NCBI RefSeq assembly: GCF_004136575.1 | Contig: NZ_NOIQ01000013.1 | Location: forward strand, 1-64,000 | DNA from: Rothia koreensis | GTDB taxonomy: Bacteria; Actinomycetota; Actinomycetes; Actinomycetales; Micrococcaceae | Length of the DNA stretch: 64,000 nt | Reading direction: 5' to 3' | Shown: in pieces, positions 5,985 through 29,429 of the stretch | Numbering within the stretch: the stretch's first letter is position 1 | Layout: each line of letters opens with the position of its first letter | The notes under the pieces: model-generated | Database searches by the model: none | Seen by the model: the letters and a program-made list of their open reading frames with translations, nothing else | Told to the model about the DNA's origin: nothing | Made by a program: the position numbers and the translations under genes

Positions 5985-7331
5985 CTATTCCTCGGTGCCG
6001 TACACGCGAGGGCGGAGATCCTCCTCGGCGGGAGTCCAGGTCGAGGGATCCGCGGCAACCTGCTCTCCCGAGCGGATGTCCTTGACCTCGTGCGTGGTCG
6101 TGCCGGACTCGTCGGTGCCCAGGAACCAGACGAAGGGTATCCCGCGCCGATCCGCGTACTTGATCTGCTTGCCGAATTTCGCGGCACTCGCAGAGACCTC
6201 GCAAGCGATGCCGCGGTCCCTCAGCTGATCCGCGACGTCTTGGGCCTCCGACCAGGCCTCGTCGTTCGTGAGGGCCACCAGAACCGCGGAGGGAACCGAA
6301 CGTGTCGGTCGCGCCAGACCCTGAGAGAGCATCCGGGCAACGAGCCGGGTCACGCCGATGGACAGTCCGACCCCCGGGTACGTTTTCTTGCCGTTCGAGG
6401 CCAGGGACTCGTACCTGCCACCGGAGCAGATGGAACCGAGCTGTTCGTGGCCGAGCAGGACTGTCTCGTAGACGGTCCCGGTGTAGTAGTCCAGGCCCCG
6501 AGCGATCGACAGGTCGGCGATGACCTTGCCGGGCGCGCGCTTCGACGCCTGCTCGATCACTTCGGTCAGCTCCGTCAGCCCCTCCTCGAGCAGGTCGTCC
6601 TGGACGCCGAAAGAACGTACCCGGTCCGCGAACGAGGTGTCCTCTGCTGTGATCGAGGCAAGGTCCAAGGCGGCTTGTGCCTGCTCGTCCGTGGCGCCGA
6701 GCTCGTCCTTGAGCAGCTGGGCCACGGCATCGGGACCGATCTTCTCCAACTTGTCGATCGAGCGAAGGACCCCCGCGGTATCGGTCAGTCCGATGCCCCG
6801 GTAGAACCCTTCGGAGAGCTTCCTGTTGTTGACCCTGAGCCTGAATTCTGGGAGCGGCAACCGCGAGAGCGCGTCCACCACGATCAGGGCGAGCTCGACG
6901 TCGTACCGGAACGGCAGCGTGCCTTCCCCGACGACGTCGATATCGGCCTGCGTGAATTCTCGGGCACGGCCCTCCTGCGGCCGCTCGCCGCGCCACGACT
7001 TCTGAATCTGGTACCGCATGAACGGAAAGTTCAGGTAGCCGGCGTTCTCGACGACGTACCGGGCGAACGGAACGGTCAGGTCGAAGTGGAGAGCGAGCTT
7101 CTCGGCCTTCTTGCTGTCACCGTCCTCCTGGAGCCGCGAGACCGCGTAGACCTCTTTGTCGATCTCGCCCTTCTGCAGGAGTTGCTCGACGGTTTCCACC
7201 GAGCGGGTCTCGATCGAGGAGAACCCGTGCAGCTCGAAGGTATGGCGCAGAACATCCAGGACATGGTTCTCTACCACCCGTTCCTCGGGCAGCAATTCCG
7301 GAAAACCTGACAAGGACGCCTTGCGGGCCAT
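5985..7331 (-). CDS. hisS: Histidyl-tRNA synthetase
   Basis: Class II synthetase that charges tRNA-His, 448 residues. Motif 1 and the ATP-site region are visible: HFDLTVPFARYV, then motif 2 MRYQIQKSWRGERPQEGRAR and FTQADIDVVG. The histidine-binding signature is IARGLDYYTGTVYE (HisA motif), and motif 3 is GVGLSIGVTRLVARML. The C-terminal 100 residues form the anticodon-binding domain. The start ATG 7331 follows GAGGAG at suitable spacing. Many HisRS end nearer 420 residues; the extra length is a charged C-terminal tail after the anticodon domain (PSTWTPAEEDLRPRVYGTEE). It is divergent from the DUF349 gene across a 265-base promoter region. Confidence 0.95.
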   Translation of the reverse strand: MARKASLSGFPELLPEERVVENHVLDVLRHTFELHGFSSIETRSVETVEQLLQKGEIDKEVYAVSRLQEDGDSKKAEKLALHFDLTVPFARYVVENAGYLNFPFMRYQIQKSWRGERPQEGRAREFTQADIDVVGEGTLPFRYDVELALIVVDALSRLPLPEFRLRVNNRKLSEGFYRGIGLTDTAGVLRSIDKLEKIGPDAVAQLLKDELGATDEQAQAALDLASITAEDTSFADRVRSFGVQDDLLEEGLTELTEVIEQASKRAPGKVIADLSIARGLDYYTGTVYETVLLGHEQLGSICSGGRYESLASNGKKTYPGVGLSIGVTRLVARMLSQGLARPTRSVPSAVLVALTNDEAWSEAQDVADQLRDRGIACEVSASAAKFGKQIKYADRRGIPFVWFLGTDESGTTTHEVKDIRSGEQVAADPSTWTPAEEDLRPRVYGTEE

Positions 7332-7596
7332 GAGCCACTCCTCAAAGTCTTGGTTCTTGGGCGCGCCGGGAGGCGCGCAAACACCTTCAAGCCTAAACCG
7401 TGGCCAGTCCCCAGGCGAACCGTGGGGACCGTGATCCCGGCCCCTTCCAGGGAAAACCGTTCATCTTTCCATGAAATAGCCGGTTCACGTGACGCACACC
7501 CCATATATATTGGAGTCCAGTGCCCGGTCCGTTCCGGGCGACGTCGACCATCGATACATAAGGCCGACAGGCCCTTCCACGGAAAGAGTTTCAGCG

Positions 7597-8931
7597 GTGA
7601 CTGAGAAGAAGCCCGACGACAAGCCCACCCCGGCCAACCTGCCGGGTTCCCCCATCGTTCCCAAACCCGCCGCACCCCCAGCAGCCCCGAGGTCGCTGGA
7701 CGAGGCCAAGAAGTTCGGCTCGGTAGGAGCAGACGGCCACGTCTACGTCACGGTGCGCGGCGAGGACATTCCCGTGGGTGCATTTCCCGAAGCCAGCGAC
7801 GACGACGCCCTGACCTACTTCGCGCGGAAATTCTCCGAGACGGAGACTCAGATCGCGCTCCTCGAGAACCGCGTCTCCCAAGGCGCCGATGCGGCATCTG
7901 TGACGCGGTCCGTCCGTTCCCTCAGGGAACAGGTCGAGGCACGCGGCATGGTCGGCGATATCGAGAACCTCGAGAAGCGTCTCGATGCCCTCGACGCCGC
8001 CGCGACCCGCCTGACCGAGGAGCAGAAGCACGAGGCCGAGGAAGCCAAGCAGCGCGCGCATCAGGAACGTGAAGCCATCGTCAAAGCCGCCGAAGATGTC
8101 GCGGACCAGGATCCGTCCGACACGCATTGGAAGAACTCGAGCGCCCGCATGAACGACCTCTTCGATGCGTGGAAGGTCGCCCAGAAGGAGCATCGCCTGC
8201 CGAAATCCGTGGAGGACGCGCTCTGGAAGCGATTCCGCACGGCACGGTCCACGTTCGACAAGCACCGCCGCTCCTACTTCTCCCAACTGGACCAGAACAA
8301 CGCCAAGGCGAAGAAGGCCAAGGAAGCGCTTATTGCCGAGGCGGAGTCGTTGTCAGGGTCCACGGACTGGAGCGAAACGTCCGCCAAGTACCGGGACCTG
8401 ATGGATCGCTGGAAGCAGGCGCCCCGGGCCTCGCGCAAGGAGGACGACGCGCTCTGGGCTCGCTTCCGGGCCGCCCAGGACGTCTTCTTCAATGCACGGG
8501 CGGCCGCCAATGCCGAGACTGACCGCGAGTTCGCGGAAAACCTCAAGGTCAAGGAAGCGTTGCTCGAGAGGGCCCGGGCGATCCTTCCGGTCAAGGACCC
8601 GGGTGCGGCGAAGGCCCAGCTCGCGCCGATCCTGGACGAGTGGGATGCGGCCGGCATGGTTCCCCGCAATGACCTGCGACGGATCGAGAATGAGCTCAAG
8701 AAGGTCCAGGACGCCATCTCCGAGGCGGAACAGGCCGAGTGGGAACGGACCAATCCCGAAACCCAGGCCAGAGCCGATTCCATGGTCAGCCAGCTCAGGG
8801 ACGCCATTTCGGAGCTGGAAGCGGACCTTCGCAAGGCCGAGTCCGCGGGGGACGCCACAGCTGCCGCCAAGGCCCGGGAAGCGCTCGATGCTCGTCGGGC
8901 CTGGTTGGACCAGCTTGACGCCGGTGCCTGA
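7597..8931 (+). CDS. DUF349 domain protein, coiled-coil rich
   Basis: A 444-residue cytoplasmic protein made mainly of helical DUF349 repeats. Repeats with the spacing W..SSARMNDLFDAWK...R..KSVEDALWKRFRTAR and SAKYRDLMDRWKQAPR..RKEDDALWARFRAAQ are visible from about residue 175, each with the conserved tryptophans and the LW.RF signature. A Pro/Ala-rich leader (first 30 residues) and a long charged coiled coil (EEQKHEAEEAKQRAHQERE) precede them. GTG 7597 is chosen as the start because GGAAAG lies ten bases upstream; an earlier ATG at 7489 would add 36 residues without a ribosome-binding site. In actinobacteria this family is habitually found near rel, as here, but its biochemical role is not established. 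Confidence 0.85.
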   Translation: MTEKKPDDKPTPANLPGSPIVPKPAAPPAAPRSLDEAKKFGSVGADGHVYVTVRGEDIPVGAFPEASDDDALTYFARKFSETETQIALLENRVSQGADAASVTRSVRSLREQVEARGMVGDIENLEKRLDALDAAATRLTEEQKHEAEEAKQRAHQEREAIVKAAEDVADQDPSDTHWKNSSARMNDLFDAWKVAQKEHRLPKSVEDALWKRFRTARSTFDKHRRSYFSQLDQNNAKAKKAKEALIAEAESLSGSTDWSETSAKYRDLMDRWKQAPRASRKEDDALWARFRAAQDVFFNARAAANAETDREFAENLKVKEALLERARAILPVKDPGAAKAQLAPILDEWDAAGMVPRNDLRRIENELKKVQDAISEAEQAEWERTNPETQARADSMVSQLRDAISELEADLRKAESAGDATAAAKAREALDARRAWLDQLDAGA

Positions 8932-9004
8932 TATCCGGTCCTGACCCCGGGCACCGACCCGATGGCCGCGGCTCCCGACGGTCACCGCCCGATCGTCGTC
9001 CCGT

Positions 9005-9062
9005 CCGAAGGGTACGGATTCGAAGAGACTGTCCACAGATTCGCTGAATCCGTACCTTTCGG
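9005..9062. promoter_or_regulatory. 17-bp inverted repeat, operator or terminator
   Basis: CCGAAGGGTACGGATTC (9005-9021) and GAATCCGTACCTTTCGG (9046-9062) pair over 17 bases with one mismatch around a 24-base loop. It sits 73 bases after the DUF349 stop and eight bases before the next start, so it may terminate the upstream transcript or act as an operator for the gene at 9070. It also argues that the coding region begins after it rather than at the earlier in-frame ATG 8962. Confidence 0.5.
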
Positions 9063-24894: not shown

Positions 24895-25665
24895 TCAGCC
24901 ACCGACTGTGCCGGTCGGGCGAGCCTCGCGTGGAAATTCCTGGAGACACAGGCAATCGCGCCGGATCGTGAACAGTCTCGACCGGTACTCTGCGGCGCGG
25001 CTCGCCAGGTAGTCCAGGTTGGCCCGCTCGACGTCGTCCGGCCGCTCCGAAGTGCCGGATACCACCAGGCACGTGGGGAGCACGCCTCGACGACTCAGAT
25101 GCTCCAGGGCCAATTCGGTGTGGTTCTGAGTTCCCAGCCCGGGGCGGCACACCAGCACCAGATGCGCCCCAGGATCGACCGAGACCCCGCCGCCGGAGCG
25201 TCCGCGCAGTGCTCGGACGGCGTCGACGGTCGTTTCGCCGTCCGAGGTCAGGGCCACTGTCACTCCCCCGGATCCTTCGATGACCAGCGAGCGCGACGTC
25301 GTCAGGTGCGCGGACCAACGTGACACGTGCGTTCCGAGTGTCGGCAGCTCGGTGGCCGGTGCATCGGAGTATCGCAGGGCGTCTCGTGGCGCCATGGCCG
25401 GACCGAGCCGCACGCCTTCCGAGCCGGTCACCCCGCCCGGATACCCCAACAATTCCAGGCACTCGTCGGCGTCTCCCGGCTCCCCCGGTTTCAACCCCGT
25501 TTGGACGGGCTTGTCGATGTGGACCCGCCCCGTTCGCCGCAGGATTTCCCCCGCGAGCGCCGCCGTGGTCCATGTCTTGCCGATGTCCGTGTCGGTGCCC
25601 GTGACCACCCAGGTCTGGCCCGGTGGCAGGGAGGTCGAGGCGCAGGTGTCGGAGTGTGTGGTCAT
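24895..25665 (-). CDS. bioD: Dethiobiotin synthase BioD
   Basis: ATP-dependent carboxylase that closes the ureido ring, turning 7,8-diaminopelargonate into dethiobiotin. It has 256 residues from ATG 25665, whose ATGA overlaps the stop of the bioF-P450 fusion. The P-loop VVTGTDTDIGKTWTTAAL (residues 19-36), the substrate lysine in DKPVQTG and the Mg-binding EGSGGVTVAL segment are visible. The last is EGAGGLLVPL in many BioD proteins, a mild variation. It is the third and last gene of the bioA-bioF::P450-bioD operon; bioB is not in the cluster. Confidence 0.9.
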   Translation of the reverse strand: MTTHSDTCASTSLPPGQTWVVTGTDTDIGKTWTTAALAGEILRRTGRVHIDKPVQTGLKPGEPGDADECLELLGYPGGVTGSEGVRLGPAMAPRDALRYSDAPATELPTLGTHVSRWSAHLTTSRSLVIEGSGGVTVALTSDGETTVDAVRALRGRSGGGVSVDPGAHLVLVCRPGLGTQNHTELALEHLSRRGVLPTCLVVSGTSERPDDVERANLDYLASRAAEYRSRLFTIRRDCLCLQEFPREARPTGTVGG

Positions 25666-27959
25666 GGGTTCTCCACGATGACGTGTTGTGGTGCTTGGAA
25701 GGACAGGAGGGTGAGCCACGACGGCAGGGCTCCGCTGGGCCGCAGTCCGGGCATGCTCCGGGCGACGTCGTGGACCACGAGCGATGCTTCCTGCTCGGCC
25801 AGTGCCGCTCCGAGGCACCGGTGGATTCCGTGGCCGAACGCCAGTCGGTGATCCGGCAAGGCTTCCCCGGAGAGTCGGAGGAGCAGGTGATCTCCGGGGT
25901 CGGCACGCAGGCCGGGGTTGTCGACCGAGACAGCCGATTGCCGCCTCCAGGTGGGCACCGATGAGTTGGCTCGAAGGGTCTGGCGAATGAGTTCGTTGGC
26001 TGTACCCGGACCGGACTGGGGGTTCCCGAGGGCCGACCACAGGGAACGATCTTCGAGGGCTCGATACAGGGCTGTGCTGATGAGCATTCTGGTGGTCTCC
26101 TGGCCCGCAATGACCAGGAAGTATCCCAGGGAGACCACCCTTTCGAGATCGATTCCTGCGGCGAGCAGGTCCGCGAAGAGGTTCTCTTCGCCGCGCGATT
26201 CCTTGACCTCGTTGCTGAGCCAGGCGTAGAAGTCGGCGGCCGAGCGCGCGAGCCCCACTTGGCGGGAGCGCTCCGGCCATCCCCAGAACAGTTCGAGCGA
26301 ATCCGCGCTCCAGCGTTGCAGGACGGAGGGTTCGGGGGCTGGCATGCCGGACAGGAGCTGCAGGCTTCGGGCGGGCACGGAAAAGGCGATCGTGCGTGAC
26401 AGGTCCACGGGGCCTGACTCGAGCTCTGCCTCGAGTTCTCGGATGCTGTCGCGGCAGATGCCACGAATGTCGGGGAGGCGGCGTCGGACCGTTGTGGCGG
26501 AAAAGTACGGGGTCGTGATCCTCCGTACCTTCCGGTGCAATTCTCCCGTGGCGGATGCGAGAACCGGTGGCAGTTGGAATCCGACCGTGGCCAGGATTCG
26601 CCGGGCTGCGGGGACCAGGGGGACGTTGGTCGTCAGTGCGTTGTCGGGGACGTACGACTCGGGATCGCCCATGACCTGCCGTACCGCGGCCGGGTCCTCG
26701 ACCAGGATCTGGCGGTGGCGGTGGTCGTCAGGACGCGCGTCCCCGTGGGCGAAAGGGCACTTGGCCGTGGCGCCCCAGGCCCGTTCGACGGCGGAGGCAA
26801 CCTGTTCGAGCGCGAGGACGAGCTGGTCGGGTCGGTGGTCGGCGTGGACGGAGAGTCGCAACCGGGAGATATTGTCCGGAACGCTCGGAGGCCGGAACAC
26901 CGCCACCCGGATACCGGCCTCGTCCAGTTCTCGTGCCGCCGCGAGCGCCGAGCCCGGGGACGGCATGCGCAAGGACAGAATGGGGCCGGCTCCGCCCTCG
27001 AGGACGCGTTCCACGGCGGGCCGCCGGCCAATAATCGACAGGGCGCGGCGACGTCGTTCTTCGAGCGCGGCGGCCAGGTTCTCGCCGCGCGCGGCGGTAC
27101 AGGCTTCGAGGGCCGCCTCGGCGACCAGCGGGGACAACCCGGTGTCGTAGATGAAGGGCCTGGCCGTGTTGACCACGTGGTCCCGCCACAGCGCCGCTTG
27201 GTGGGCCGGGCCACCGAAGAGGATGACGCCGCCCTGTGCCGCGAGCGCTTTGGACAGGGAGGCCGTGACGATTATCGGTGCCCTCGCGTCCCGTTCGTGG
27301 TTCCACAGGTCGTGCGTGCGAGCGAGCGTTCCTTGTGGCACGGTCGCGAAACTGTGGGCCTCGTCGACCACGAGCAGGGCGTGGTGGGTCGCGCAGAGTC
27401 GCGCGAGGGCATCCAGGTCGGTCGCGTCTCCGACCACGGAGTACACGGATTCGACGATGACGGCGATGCGTCCCCCGGGGCGTGCCCGGCCGGTGTGCTC
27501 GAGCCGGTGTTCCAGCTTGGCGAGGTCCTGGTGGGGGAAGAATTCGTGGTGGGATGCCGCCGCTCGCGCCGCGTCGCGGAGGCTCGCGTGCACGTGGTCG
27601 TCCATGAGCAGCGTGGTGCCCGGGGCATCGAGGGCCCCGATGATCCCCAGGTTGGCGAGGTATCCCGAGGAGAACACGAGGGCATCCTGCGCTCCGGCCA
27701 GCTGGGCAAGCTCTGCCTCGACCGTCCGGTGCTCAGGGTGCGTTCCGGCGACGACGCGGGAGGATCCGGCACCCGCGGGGGCCGAGGTGCGACGGCTCGG
27801 CAGACCGCGTGCCCCCAATCCCAGGTAGTCGTTGGTCCTGAAGTCGATGGCCAACGCCGTCGCCCGTGGTGGAGGCGGAGGTTCGGCCGTTCGGACGAGG
27901 GCACGGCGGTTTCGCACGCGGTGACGATTTTCCGCCCACGCGGTCCAGTCGGCGCTCAT
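25662..27959 (-). CDS. Fusion of BioF (8-amino-7-oxononanoate synthase) and cytochrome P450
   Basis: A 765-residue protein with two complete-looking enzymes in one frame. Residues 1 to about 395 are a PLP-dependent BioF: substrate-loop FSSGYLANLG, His124 in DDHVHASLRDA, Asp199 and His202 in VVDEAHSF, and the Schiff-base Lys237 in TASLSKALAA. Residues about 400-765 are a cytochrome P450: helix C region LHRKVRRITTPYF, helix I IAGQETTRML (acid-alcohol pair 621-622), ExxR at 656-659 and the heme loop FGHGIHRCLG with Cys715. In Bacillus the P450 BioI cleaves acyl-ACP to pimeloyl-ACP, the substrate of BioF, so the fusion plausibly couples supply and use of the pimeloyl thioester. The P450 half lacks much of the usual N-terminal helix A. 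Start and stop both overlap neighbours by four bases. Confidence 0.9.
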   Translation of the reverse strand: MSADWTAWAENRHRVRNRRALVRTAEPPPPPRATALAIDFRTNDYLGLGARGLPSRRTSAPAGAGSSRVVAGTHPEHRTVEAELAQLAGAQDALVFSSGYLANLGIIGALDAPGTTLLMDDHVHASLRDAARAAASHHEFFPHQDLAKLEHRLEHTGRARPGGRIAVIVESVYSVVGDATDLDALARLCATHHALLVVDEAHSFATVPQGTLARTHDLWNHERDARAPIIVTASLSKALAAQGGVILFGGPAHQAALWRDHVVNTARPFIYDTGLSPLVAEAALEACTAARGENLAAALEERRRRALSIIGRRPAVERVLEGGAGPILSLRMPSPGSALAAARELDEAGIRVAVFRPPSVPDNISRLRLSVHADHRPDQLVLALEQVASAVERAWGATAKCPFAHGDARPDDHRHRQILVEDPAAVRQVMGDPESYVPDNALTTNVPLVPAARRILATVGFQLPPVLASATGELHRKVRRITTPYFSATTVRRRLPDIRGICRDSIRELEAELESGPVDLSRTIAFSVPARSLQLLSGMPAPEPSVLQRWSADSLELFWGWPERSRQVGLARSAADFYAWLSNEVKESRGEENLFADLLAAGIDLERVVSLGYFLVIAGQETTRMLISTALYRALEDRSLWSALGNPQSGPGTANELIRQTLRANSSVPTWRRQSAVSVDNPGLRADPGDHLLLRLSGEALPDHRLAFGHGIHRCLGAALAEQEASLVVHDVARSMPGLRPSGALPSWLTLLSFQAPQHVIVENP

Positions 27960-29320
27960 CCGTGGACCTCACCGATCGCTTCGATGAGCCCGTGACAGAT
28001 CTGCCGGGCTTGGTCGTCGGTGGTGATGTAGGGCGGCATCACGTAGACGAGTCGCCGGAAGGGTCTGATCCAGACTCCGCGTCGCACCGCTGCCCGTGTC
28101 ACGGCGGTGACGTCGACGTCTCGGTTCAGCTCGATGACTCCTACGGCGCCGAGGACTCTCACGTCGGAAACCGAGTCCAGGTCCGCGGCCGGTGCCAGTC
28201 CGTGGGCGAGTGCTCTTTCCAGGCGGGGCACGGTGCTGGCCCACCCTGTTTCGTGATCCGTCAACAGTTCGAGGGAAGCCAGGGAGACGGCGCAGAACAA
28301 CGGGTTGCCCATGAAGGTCGGGCCGTGCAGCAGGGCGGCAGGCATGCCGTTCGTTCCCGCGGATACTCGACGCGCGACACGTGAGGTCGTGAGGGTCGCG
28401 GCGCCGGTCATGGTCCCGCCGGTGAGGGCCTTGCCGAGGCACATGATGTCCGGGGCGATCCCGGCCCATTCCGAGGCGGTCCATCGTCCGGTTCGACCGA
28501 ATCCCGTGGCGATCTCGTCGAGAACGAGCAGGCAGTCGTGGGCGTCGCAGACTCGCCGGGCGACGTCGAGGGCTCGCGGATCGTACACGCGCATGCCGCC
28601 GGCCCCTTGGAGGACCGGTTCGAGGATGACGCCACCGATTCTTTCCGTGTTCTCGGCGAGGATCGCCTCGAATTCGGTGGCCCACGCCTCCAGGGCTTGG
28701 TCGTCCCAGGTCCAGGTGGCGTGGTCGACGTCGTAATGGCCGCTGGGCGGGCGTGGGACGAAGAAATGATGTGTGGCCAGTGGGCTGAAGGCGTGGTGCA
28801 TGCCGTCGACCGGGTCGCACAGGCTCATGGTCGCGAAGGTGTCCCCGTGGTACCCGCCGCGGACCGTCAGCATCCGGTTCCGTTCCGGCCGGCCCGAAGC
28901 CGCCTGGTACTGGATGACCATTTTGAGCGCGATTTCCACCGAGATCGACCCGGAATCCGAGAAGAAGACGTGCTGCAGGCCTTCGGGAGAATTGGCGACG
29001 AGGTTCTCGGCCAGCCGGACGGCCGGTTCATGGGTCAGGCCCCCGAACATGACATGGGGCATGACCTCGGACTGTCGTTGCAGGGCGCCGGTCAGCTTCG
29101 GATGCGAATGCCCGTGCACCATGGCCCACCACGAGCCCATCGCGTCGATCGCCGTATGTTCGTGCCCCTCGGCGTCTTCGAGCCTCAGCAGTGCTCCCTC
29201 GGCGGAACGGACCGCGTAGAGCTGTTCCTCGCCGGCGGGTGCGTACGGATGCCACACGTGGCGGGCATCCCGGGCAATCAGGCCCTGGACCTCACGCACG
29301 GCCTCGCTCCTTGGCGACAT
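27956..29320 (-). CDS. bioA: Adenosylmethionine-8-amino-7-oxononanoate aminotransferase BioA
   Basis: PLP enzyme that transfers the amino group of S-adenosylmethionine to 8-amino-7-oxononanoate, giving 7,8-diaminopelargonate. It has 454 residues from ATG 29320; the longer open frame begins with TTG inside the operator and is rejected. Class III aminotransferase features are clear: SWWAMVHGHSHPKL, HVMFGGLTHEPA, the cofactor aspartate in LLVLDEIATGFGRTG and the Schiff-base lysine in CLGKALTGG. It is the first gene of the biotin operon; its stop overlaps the bioF-P450 start (ATGA). The operator-overlapped promoter at 29400-29429 implies repression by a biotin-responsive regulator encoded elsewhere. 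Confidence 0.94.
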   Translation of the reverse strand: MSPRSEAVREVQGLIARDARHVWHPYAPAGEEQLYAVRSAEGALLRLEDAEGHEHTAIDAMGSWWAMVHGHSHPKLTGALQRQSEVMPHVMFGGLTHEPAVRLAENLVANSPEGLQHVFFSDSGSISVEIALKMVIQYQAASGRPERNRMLTVRGGYHGDTFATMSLCDPVDGMHHAFSPLATHHFFVPRPPSGHYDVDHATWTWDDQALEAWATEFEAILAENTERIGGVILEPVLQGAGGMRVYDPRALDVARRVCDAHDCLLVLDEIATGFGRTGRWTASEWAGIAPDIMCLGKALTGGTMTGAATLTTSRVARRVSAGTNGMPAALLHGPTFMGNPLFCAVSLASLELLTDHETGWASTVPRLERALAHGLAPAADLDSVSDVRVLGAVGVIELNRDVDVTAVTRAAVRRGVWIRPFRRLVYVMPPYITTDDQARQICHGLIEAIGEVHG

Positions 29321-29399
29321 AGCGGGCTGGTTCGGTGCCCCATGTCCGGAGGGTGGTTCGTGGGCGCGAGAGGCGGTGGTGCGGAAGGAGCATGCAAGT

Positions 29400-29429
29400 A
29401 CCGTAGCCAGATTTTGAACGGTGTTCAAA
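29400..29429 (-). promoter_or_regulatory. bioA promoter overlapped by a BioQ-like operator
   Basis: The perfect palindrome TTTGAAC-GGT-GTTCAAA (29413-29429) matches the form TGAAC-N3-GTTnn described for the TetR-type repressor BioQ of Corynebacterium and Mycobacterium. On the minus strand its TTGAAC (29428-29423) is also a good -35, followed by a 17-base spacer and TACGGT (29405-29400) as the -10. Binding would therefore occlude RNA polymerase. The BioQ gene is not in the window. Confidence 0.7.

Follow-up and report, generated by a model that had tools for sequence, protein, structure and literature searches.

Bacterial species differ strikingly in how they make the C7 pimeloyl unit of biotin. 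In the excerpts of the literature used here, BioI (CYP107H1) of Bacillus subtilis is described as a cytochrome P450 that is encoded with biotin genes and cuts acyl-ACP (ACP, acyl carrier protein) to pimeloyl-ACP, and a 2025 paper states that it is found solely in B. subtilis, where it is redundant (PMC12915131). In the mkp cluster of Streptomyces, deletion of either mkpG, which encodes a P450, or mkpD, which encodes a BioF-like enzyme, abolishes alpha-methyl-KAPA (KAPA, 7-keto-8-aminopelargonic acid; PMC13336041). Natural BioWF fusions have been described in Desulfosporosinus orientis and Corynebacterium amycolatum, and CaBioWF, in which a pimeloyl-forming domain is fused to BioF, acts as one catalyst (PMC9544090); further background was drawn, likewise in excerpt, from PMC7645780, PMC11089781 and PMC9302846. 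In the open-licence literature, outside of which most subscription journals lie, we found neither a BioF-P450 fusion nor a P450 encoded in a biotin operon of an actinobacterium, the mkp cluster being the nearest case. Here we describe a fused bioF-P450 gene of Rothia koreensis (family Micrococcaceae), located in a window of 64,000 nucleotides (contig NZ_NOIQ01000013.1 of assembly GCF_004136575.1, positions 1 to 64,000, whose numbering is used throughout). The gene and its parts are as follows:

25662..27959, minus strand: bioF-P450 fusion gene, 765 amino acids plus stop in one open frame
26784..27959, minus strand: BioF domain, residues 1-392, with Lys237, which carries the pyridoxal 5'-phosphate (PLP), Asp199 and His202 (by profile and alignment)
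26748..26783, minus strand: junction, residues 393-404 (AWGA..CPF region), limits approximate (by alignment of nine fused proteins)
25665..26747, minus strand: P450 domain, residues 405-765, with heme Cys715 and QTLR at the ExxR position (by profile, alignment and model)

The fusion resembles BioWF in that a domain expected to form a pimeloyl thioester is joined to BioF; the partner there is BioW, whereas in Rothia it is a C-terminal P450. With the mkp pair it has in common an actinobacterial P450 and a BioF-like enzyme, both of them needed there for one product (MkpG was compared by description only), but the mkp enzymes are separate proteins, their cluster has ketosynthase, ACP and FabH-like genes of its own, and it makes alpha-methyl-KAPA. 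BioI is likewise a P450 in a biotin operon but, unlike the fused P450, it is free-standing and works beside BioW. From the sequence, and by analogy with these systems, we think it probable that the fused protein is a two-step biotin enzyme, whose P450 would produce a pimeloyl thioester by cutting an acyl chain and whose BioF would use that product.

Linkage of the P450 family to bioF

In actinobacteria this P450 family is tied to the biotin genes, and that tie is more important than the fusion itself. In a sample of 295 genomes of the family Micrococcaceae, searched with expectation values up to 1e-85 for the P450 and up to 1e-90 for BioF, the P450 was found in 82 genomes and BioF in 99, with one copy of bioF per genome. 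Both genes occur together in 81 of the 82 P450-bearing genomes, always on the same contig and strand and at most 760 bp apart. Their spacing is 200 bp or less in 75 genomes and 728-758 bp in six, and bioD lies between bioF and the P450 in those of the six whose DNA was read. The sole genome with the P450 only carries it at base 80 of a contig, that is, at a contig end. The association extends over 16 of the 32 sampled genera of the family. Where the two genes are adjacent and unfused, the end of bioF and the beginning of the P450 gene have 4 nt in common in 26 of 29 pairs, a count towards which our script was biased, as it chose P450 starts overlapping the bioF stop where these were available.

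The same linkage was observed in a collection with one genome per species, from which the best 80 of at least 497 P450 relatives were kept. Among these 80, bioF is present in the DNA read at 49 of the 51 named-species loci with at least 38% P450 identity, and the remaining two, cut by contig ends, keep bioD; none of the 29 loci at or below 32% identity has bioF in the DNA read. Some genomes occur twice, as G handles and as named loci (L handles). One locus, L072 (G497), was entered as unlinked in the named-species loci, in the P450 tree and in the motif counts, none of which was recounted; on a longer stretch its P450 turns out to be some 3 kb away from bioF and bioD.

In a quick P450 tree the biotin-linked rows form one branch, with a support of 88 in the Shimodaira-Hasegawa-like approximate likelihood-ratio test (SH-aLRT, the only support calculated) and of 100 when L072 is included. 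The input had 97 rows, eight of which were dropped for having identical last 300 residues; it excludes the linked loci L106, L123, L127, L136, L144 and L148, the low-identity loci L153-L179, and L076-L078 and L082-L099. Long branches were flagged, among them G013, G165, G287, Propioniferax and L072.

Gene order varies around this linkage. The layout bioA-bioF-P450-bioD is found in many Arthrobacter and Glutamicibacter, and bioA-bioF-bioD-P450 in other Arthrobacter, Paenarthrobacter, Kribbella, Cryobacterium and Sinomonas. In Lentzea, Saccharothrix, Actinoalloteichus, Umezawaea and Crossiella the P450 lies on the strand opposite bioF, with no bioA or bioD nearby; at L126 and L143 (Lentzea and relatives) it is arranged head to head with bioF, at a distance from bioA and bioD, and may serve either biotin or another product. 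Distant kin of the biotin P450 form a tandem pair at L182 (G447, 6618-9008), with no bio genes within 15 kb. The biotin P450 is not the only P450 of the Rothia genome, as a second P450-like gene was detected on contig 7 (L184, 49544-49972; PF00067, 33.7 bits).

The fused gene, its spread and its origin

The original prediction was that a single polypeptide joins BioF to a P450, and this was borne out: the open-frame listing of the window shows 765 codons, then a stop, with no interruption. Two sister species, at 78% identity, and members of other genera also have the frame unbroken. Between the species itself and its two fused sisters, the ratio of nonsynonymous to synonymous substitution rates (Ka/Ks) lies at 0.17-0.18 in BioF and at 0.14-0.15 in the P450, with 0.26-0.31 in the junction; the pair G139/G090 gives 0.39, 0.30 and 0.72, respectively. 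Both halves are under purifying selection. With the frame kept in relatives and ratios this low, a stop, a frameshift or an error of assembly within residues 390-410, the weak point that the prediction itself had named, is very unlikely, and a chimera is ruled out on the same grounds.

The BioF half has TIGR00858 (bioF) as its top NCBIfam match, over residues 35-387 and with 241.5 bits, below the model cut-off of 426.45; among solved structures it is closest to an 8-amino-7-oxononanoate synthase of actinobacterial type (3wy7/7s5m, 175.5 bits). Lys237, Asp199 and His202 are invariant across 27 aligned BioFs and, like heme Cys715 in the other half, stand at the positions predicted.

The same domain pair, looked for in related genomes, was found fused in one frame in at least eight of the 295 family genomes, belonging to four genera (R. 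koreensis itself, G000, with G118, G280, G139, G108, G090, G165 and G013); this count is a lower bound that covers the loci read and the matches listed. A ninth case lies outside the family, in Propioniferax innocua (L109), where the fused open reading frame (ORF), ending at 7149, has bioA before it and bioD after it, and its P450 groups with those of the g14 fusions in the tree. From this grouping, horizontal transfer into Propioniferax appears likely. The AWGA..CPF junction is common to all nine fusions except that of G013, with A in place of C in Propioniferax and AWGI in the two sisters, and it is similar to MSCPF, with which some free-standing P450 relatives begin. In the tree the fused state requires two changes: eight fusions group together (SH-aLRT 91), and the long branch of G013 is separate from them. 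The simplest account would be one fusion, later transferred to Propioniferax, and perhaps a second event, although the long branches leave us unsure of it. Eight of the nine fusions probably have a single origin, through loss of the stop and start between overlapping genes. In G076 both halves share a frame that is interrupted by one TGA, with a start codon right after it (L008, 2602-2604; L037, 6900-6902), an arrangement that may be a step toward fusion or away from it.

Whether joining the two proteins brought any benefit is a separate matter. Coupled genes may simply have lost a stop codon, with no channelling between the halves, and this neutral reading, which is compatible with a two-step biotin enzyme, we regard as a serious possibility if not quite an even one. 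Most relatives manage without the fusion, with 35 unfused pairs examined, the genus of R. koreensis itself mixes fused (G000, G118, G280) with separate forms (G287, G160), and the 4-nt overlap already couples the genes in nearly all adjacent unfused pairs. On the other side, the junction is kept across several genera and in Propioniferax, which indicates that the fused form has persisted but does not prove an advantage.

Features of the P450 half

The P450 half matches the profile of its family over the full length, and its AlphaFold2 model has a predicted local distance difference test score (pLDDT) of 90.2 and a predicted template modelling score (pTM) of 0.91. The general Pfam p450 model gave no match when the whole fusion protein was scanned, and on the isolated half it gave 18.4 bits, under the cut-off of 22.8. 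An intact-looking P450 had been predicted, and this holds for heme Cys715, whose position is invariant in 43 aligned P450s, for His475 and Arg479 of helix C (HxxxR) and for AGQETT of helix I (618-623), but not for the ExxR motif or the meander. Across 80 biotin-linked P450s, the Cys, His, Arg, Ala, Gly and Thr of these motifs are kept in all 80 and the helix-I Glu in 78. At the ExxR position, both by alignment with relatives and by counting ungapped back from the conserved WRR, the fusion reads Gln660-x-x-Arg663 (QTLR); the ELIR earlier taken for ExxR sits four residues upstream of the true position, out of register. Glu and Arg are both present there in only 12 of the 80 linked P450s, the motif being incomplete in 68, against nine of nine comparison P450s, one of which (L072) proved biotin-linked on the longer stretch. 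Most of the meander is also gone, the corresponding stretch having a median of 15 residues in the 80 linked P450s against 27 in the nine. On their sequences, both halves of the fusion look active. P450s without a full ExxR motif have been described in excerpted work on CYP157 of Streptomyces (PMC3599690); these resemble the fused P450 in the incomplete motif and differ from it in being linked to conservons, not to biotin genes.

The P450 half begins with few residues before the beta1/helix-B region, and the original prediction held that it may need BioF in order to fold. Comparison with free-standing relatives does not support this: the fused P450 has 24 residues there, and 20 of 35 unfused relatives have ten or fewer (more than 25 in 12 of them all). 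Shortness of the N-terminus is a trait of the P450 family, and such equally short free-standing proteins rule out the fusion as its cause.

By profile, the nearest P450s of solved structure are 5gwe and 5xjn (204 and 203 bits), which we take to be CreJ, followed at about 181-184 bits by a group presumably of CYP116B type (the structure file labels 6ro8 'P450 RhF' and the others plain P450). To our knowledge neither type has a link to biotin. BioI (3ejb) ranks only 19th among the solved-structure sequences, with 119.9 bits, so that the parallel with BioI drawn originally stands for the place of the P450 in a biotin operon and not for its kinship. A family nearer to 5gwe and to the CYP116B type (about 182 bits) than to BioI need not carry out the reaction of BioI, and the pimeloyl unit could arise in another way, for instance through omega-oxidation of a C7 acyl thioester or from a free fatty acid that the P450 attacks. 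We consider this unlikely by analogy: in the excerpts used, the pimelate unit is said to come from the cutting of an acyl chain in the case of BioI, of MkpG and of the non-heme BioE alike.

Operon, proposed function and alternatives

The fusion gene is surrounded by the following features:

27956..29428, minus strand: bioA (TIGR00508, 500 bits, above the cut-off of 405), listed with a TTG start, an ATG ending at 29320 being the likelier start
24895..25665, minus strand: bioD, 256 amino acids (top NCBIfam match TIGR00347 bioD, 69.4 bits, below the cut-off of 83.3)
29414..29428, no strand: palindromic box TTGAAC-N3-GTTCAA upstream of the operon (by pattern search; the same box lies before bioB on contig 6)

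The operon thus has the order bioA / bioF-P450 / bioD, and both junctions overlap as ATGA, the fusion start overlapping the bioA stop and the fusion stop overlapping the bioD start. The listed TTG start of bioA falls inside the palindromic box. On contig 6, bioB scores above its cut-off and has a TetR-type gene one ORF away. Allowing at most one mismatch, the box occurs at three sites in the 2.9-Mb genome: exact before the operon and before bioB, and with one mismatch directly before a BioY gene. A reversed control of the pattern gave two sites at the same limit, so the evidence lies in the position of the sites, not in their number. An excerpted review describes BioQ as a protein of TetR type that regulates biotin genes of actinomycetes, and we infer that the box may be the site of a BioQ-like TetR-type protein.

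In the proposed two-step enzyme, a redox partner unlinked to the operon would feed the C-terminal P450, which would oxidatively cleave a fatty acyl chain, most likely carried as acyl-ACP as in BioI, to a pimeloyl thioester. The N-terminal BioF, to which the thioester may be channelled as originally predicted, would condense it with L-alanine to give KAPA, and BioA and BioD, together with BioB from its separate locus, would turn KAPA into biotin.

Such a route had been predicted to avoid BioC and BioH. BioW was found in none of 29 genomes, in a search whose control rang in B. subtilis. No match exceeded the BioC cut-off in 55 genomes or the BioH cut-off in 12, with weak matches everywhere. In the R. 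koreensis genome itself, likewise, BioW was not found and nothing passed the BioC and BioH cut-offs, which had no actinobacterial positive control here. Clusters of the form bioB-bioA-bioF-bioD, with no P450, no BioC over the cut-off and no BioW, are present at L051 and L052 (genus g5) and at L053 and L054 (genus g26).

Several points weigh against a biotin-making role of the P450. Of the 99 bioF-bearing family genomes, 18 do not have it, and among these 18 no BioC over the cut-off was found in the 11 checked and no BioW in the 17 checked; a lack of BioC and BioW is therefore by itself no proof that the P450 takes over their task. The cut-offs for BioC and for BioH were each passed by only one of 14 control genomes, none of them an actinobacterium known to use these proteins. 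No ferredoxin-like small ORF was detected near 58 linked loci, using an uncalibrated motif that had no positive control. The ExxR motif and the meander are degenerate in the linked P450s. BioI itself works beside BioW in B. subtilis and is reported, in excerpted sources, as redundant. What supports the proposed route is the operon, the co-occurrence with bioF and the shared box, together with the retained catalytic residues, the purifying selection on both halves, the lack of a BioW match and, indirectly, the experimental precedents of BioI, the mkp pair and BioWF.

This genetic context also bears on whether the pair makes biotin at all. A P450 and a BioF-like enzyme make alpha-methyl-KAPA in Streptomyces (PMC13336041, in excerpt), and the pair could by that example produce an antimetabolite of the biotin pathway. 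However, it lies between bioA and bioD and has its box in common with bioB and bioY, no ketosynthase, ACP or FabH was found among the nine neighbouring window proteins scanned, and with one bioF per family genome the fused copy is not an extra one, all of which makes this reading very improbable. Equally remote is a catalytically dead P450 half that stabilises or regulates BioF, which the incomplete ExxR and mostly missing meander would fit but which the full retention of the heme Cys, HxxxR and AG..T in the linked P450s, the near-complete retention of the helix-I Glu, the low Ka/Ks and the precedent of CYP157 oppose.

Taken further, the proposal would be that in actinobacteria a compact P450 family, with the meander lost and ExxR mostly lost, was recruited independently of Bacillus BioI as the pimelate-forming enzyme of the biotin pathway, and that one lineage fused it with BioF so that the pimeloyl thioester is used at once; this would be a working P450-to-BioF route, whereas that of B. 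subtilis is thought redundant. On this wider proposal we find the balance even. A P450 that accompanies bioF in half of the sampled genera, has its box in common with bioB and bioY in R. koreensis and is in places joined to BioF would make a P450 route to biotin real and directly testable, and would provide a natural single-chain catalyst together with an ExxR-poor P450 family for study. The bioF-linked P450 points to a little-noticed P450-based route to biotin in some actinobacteria.

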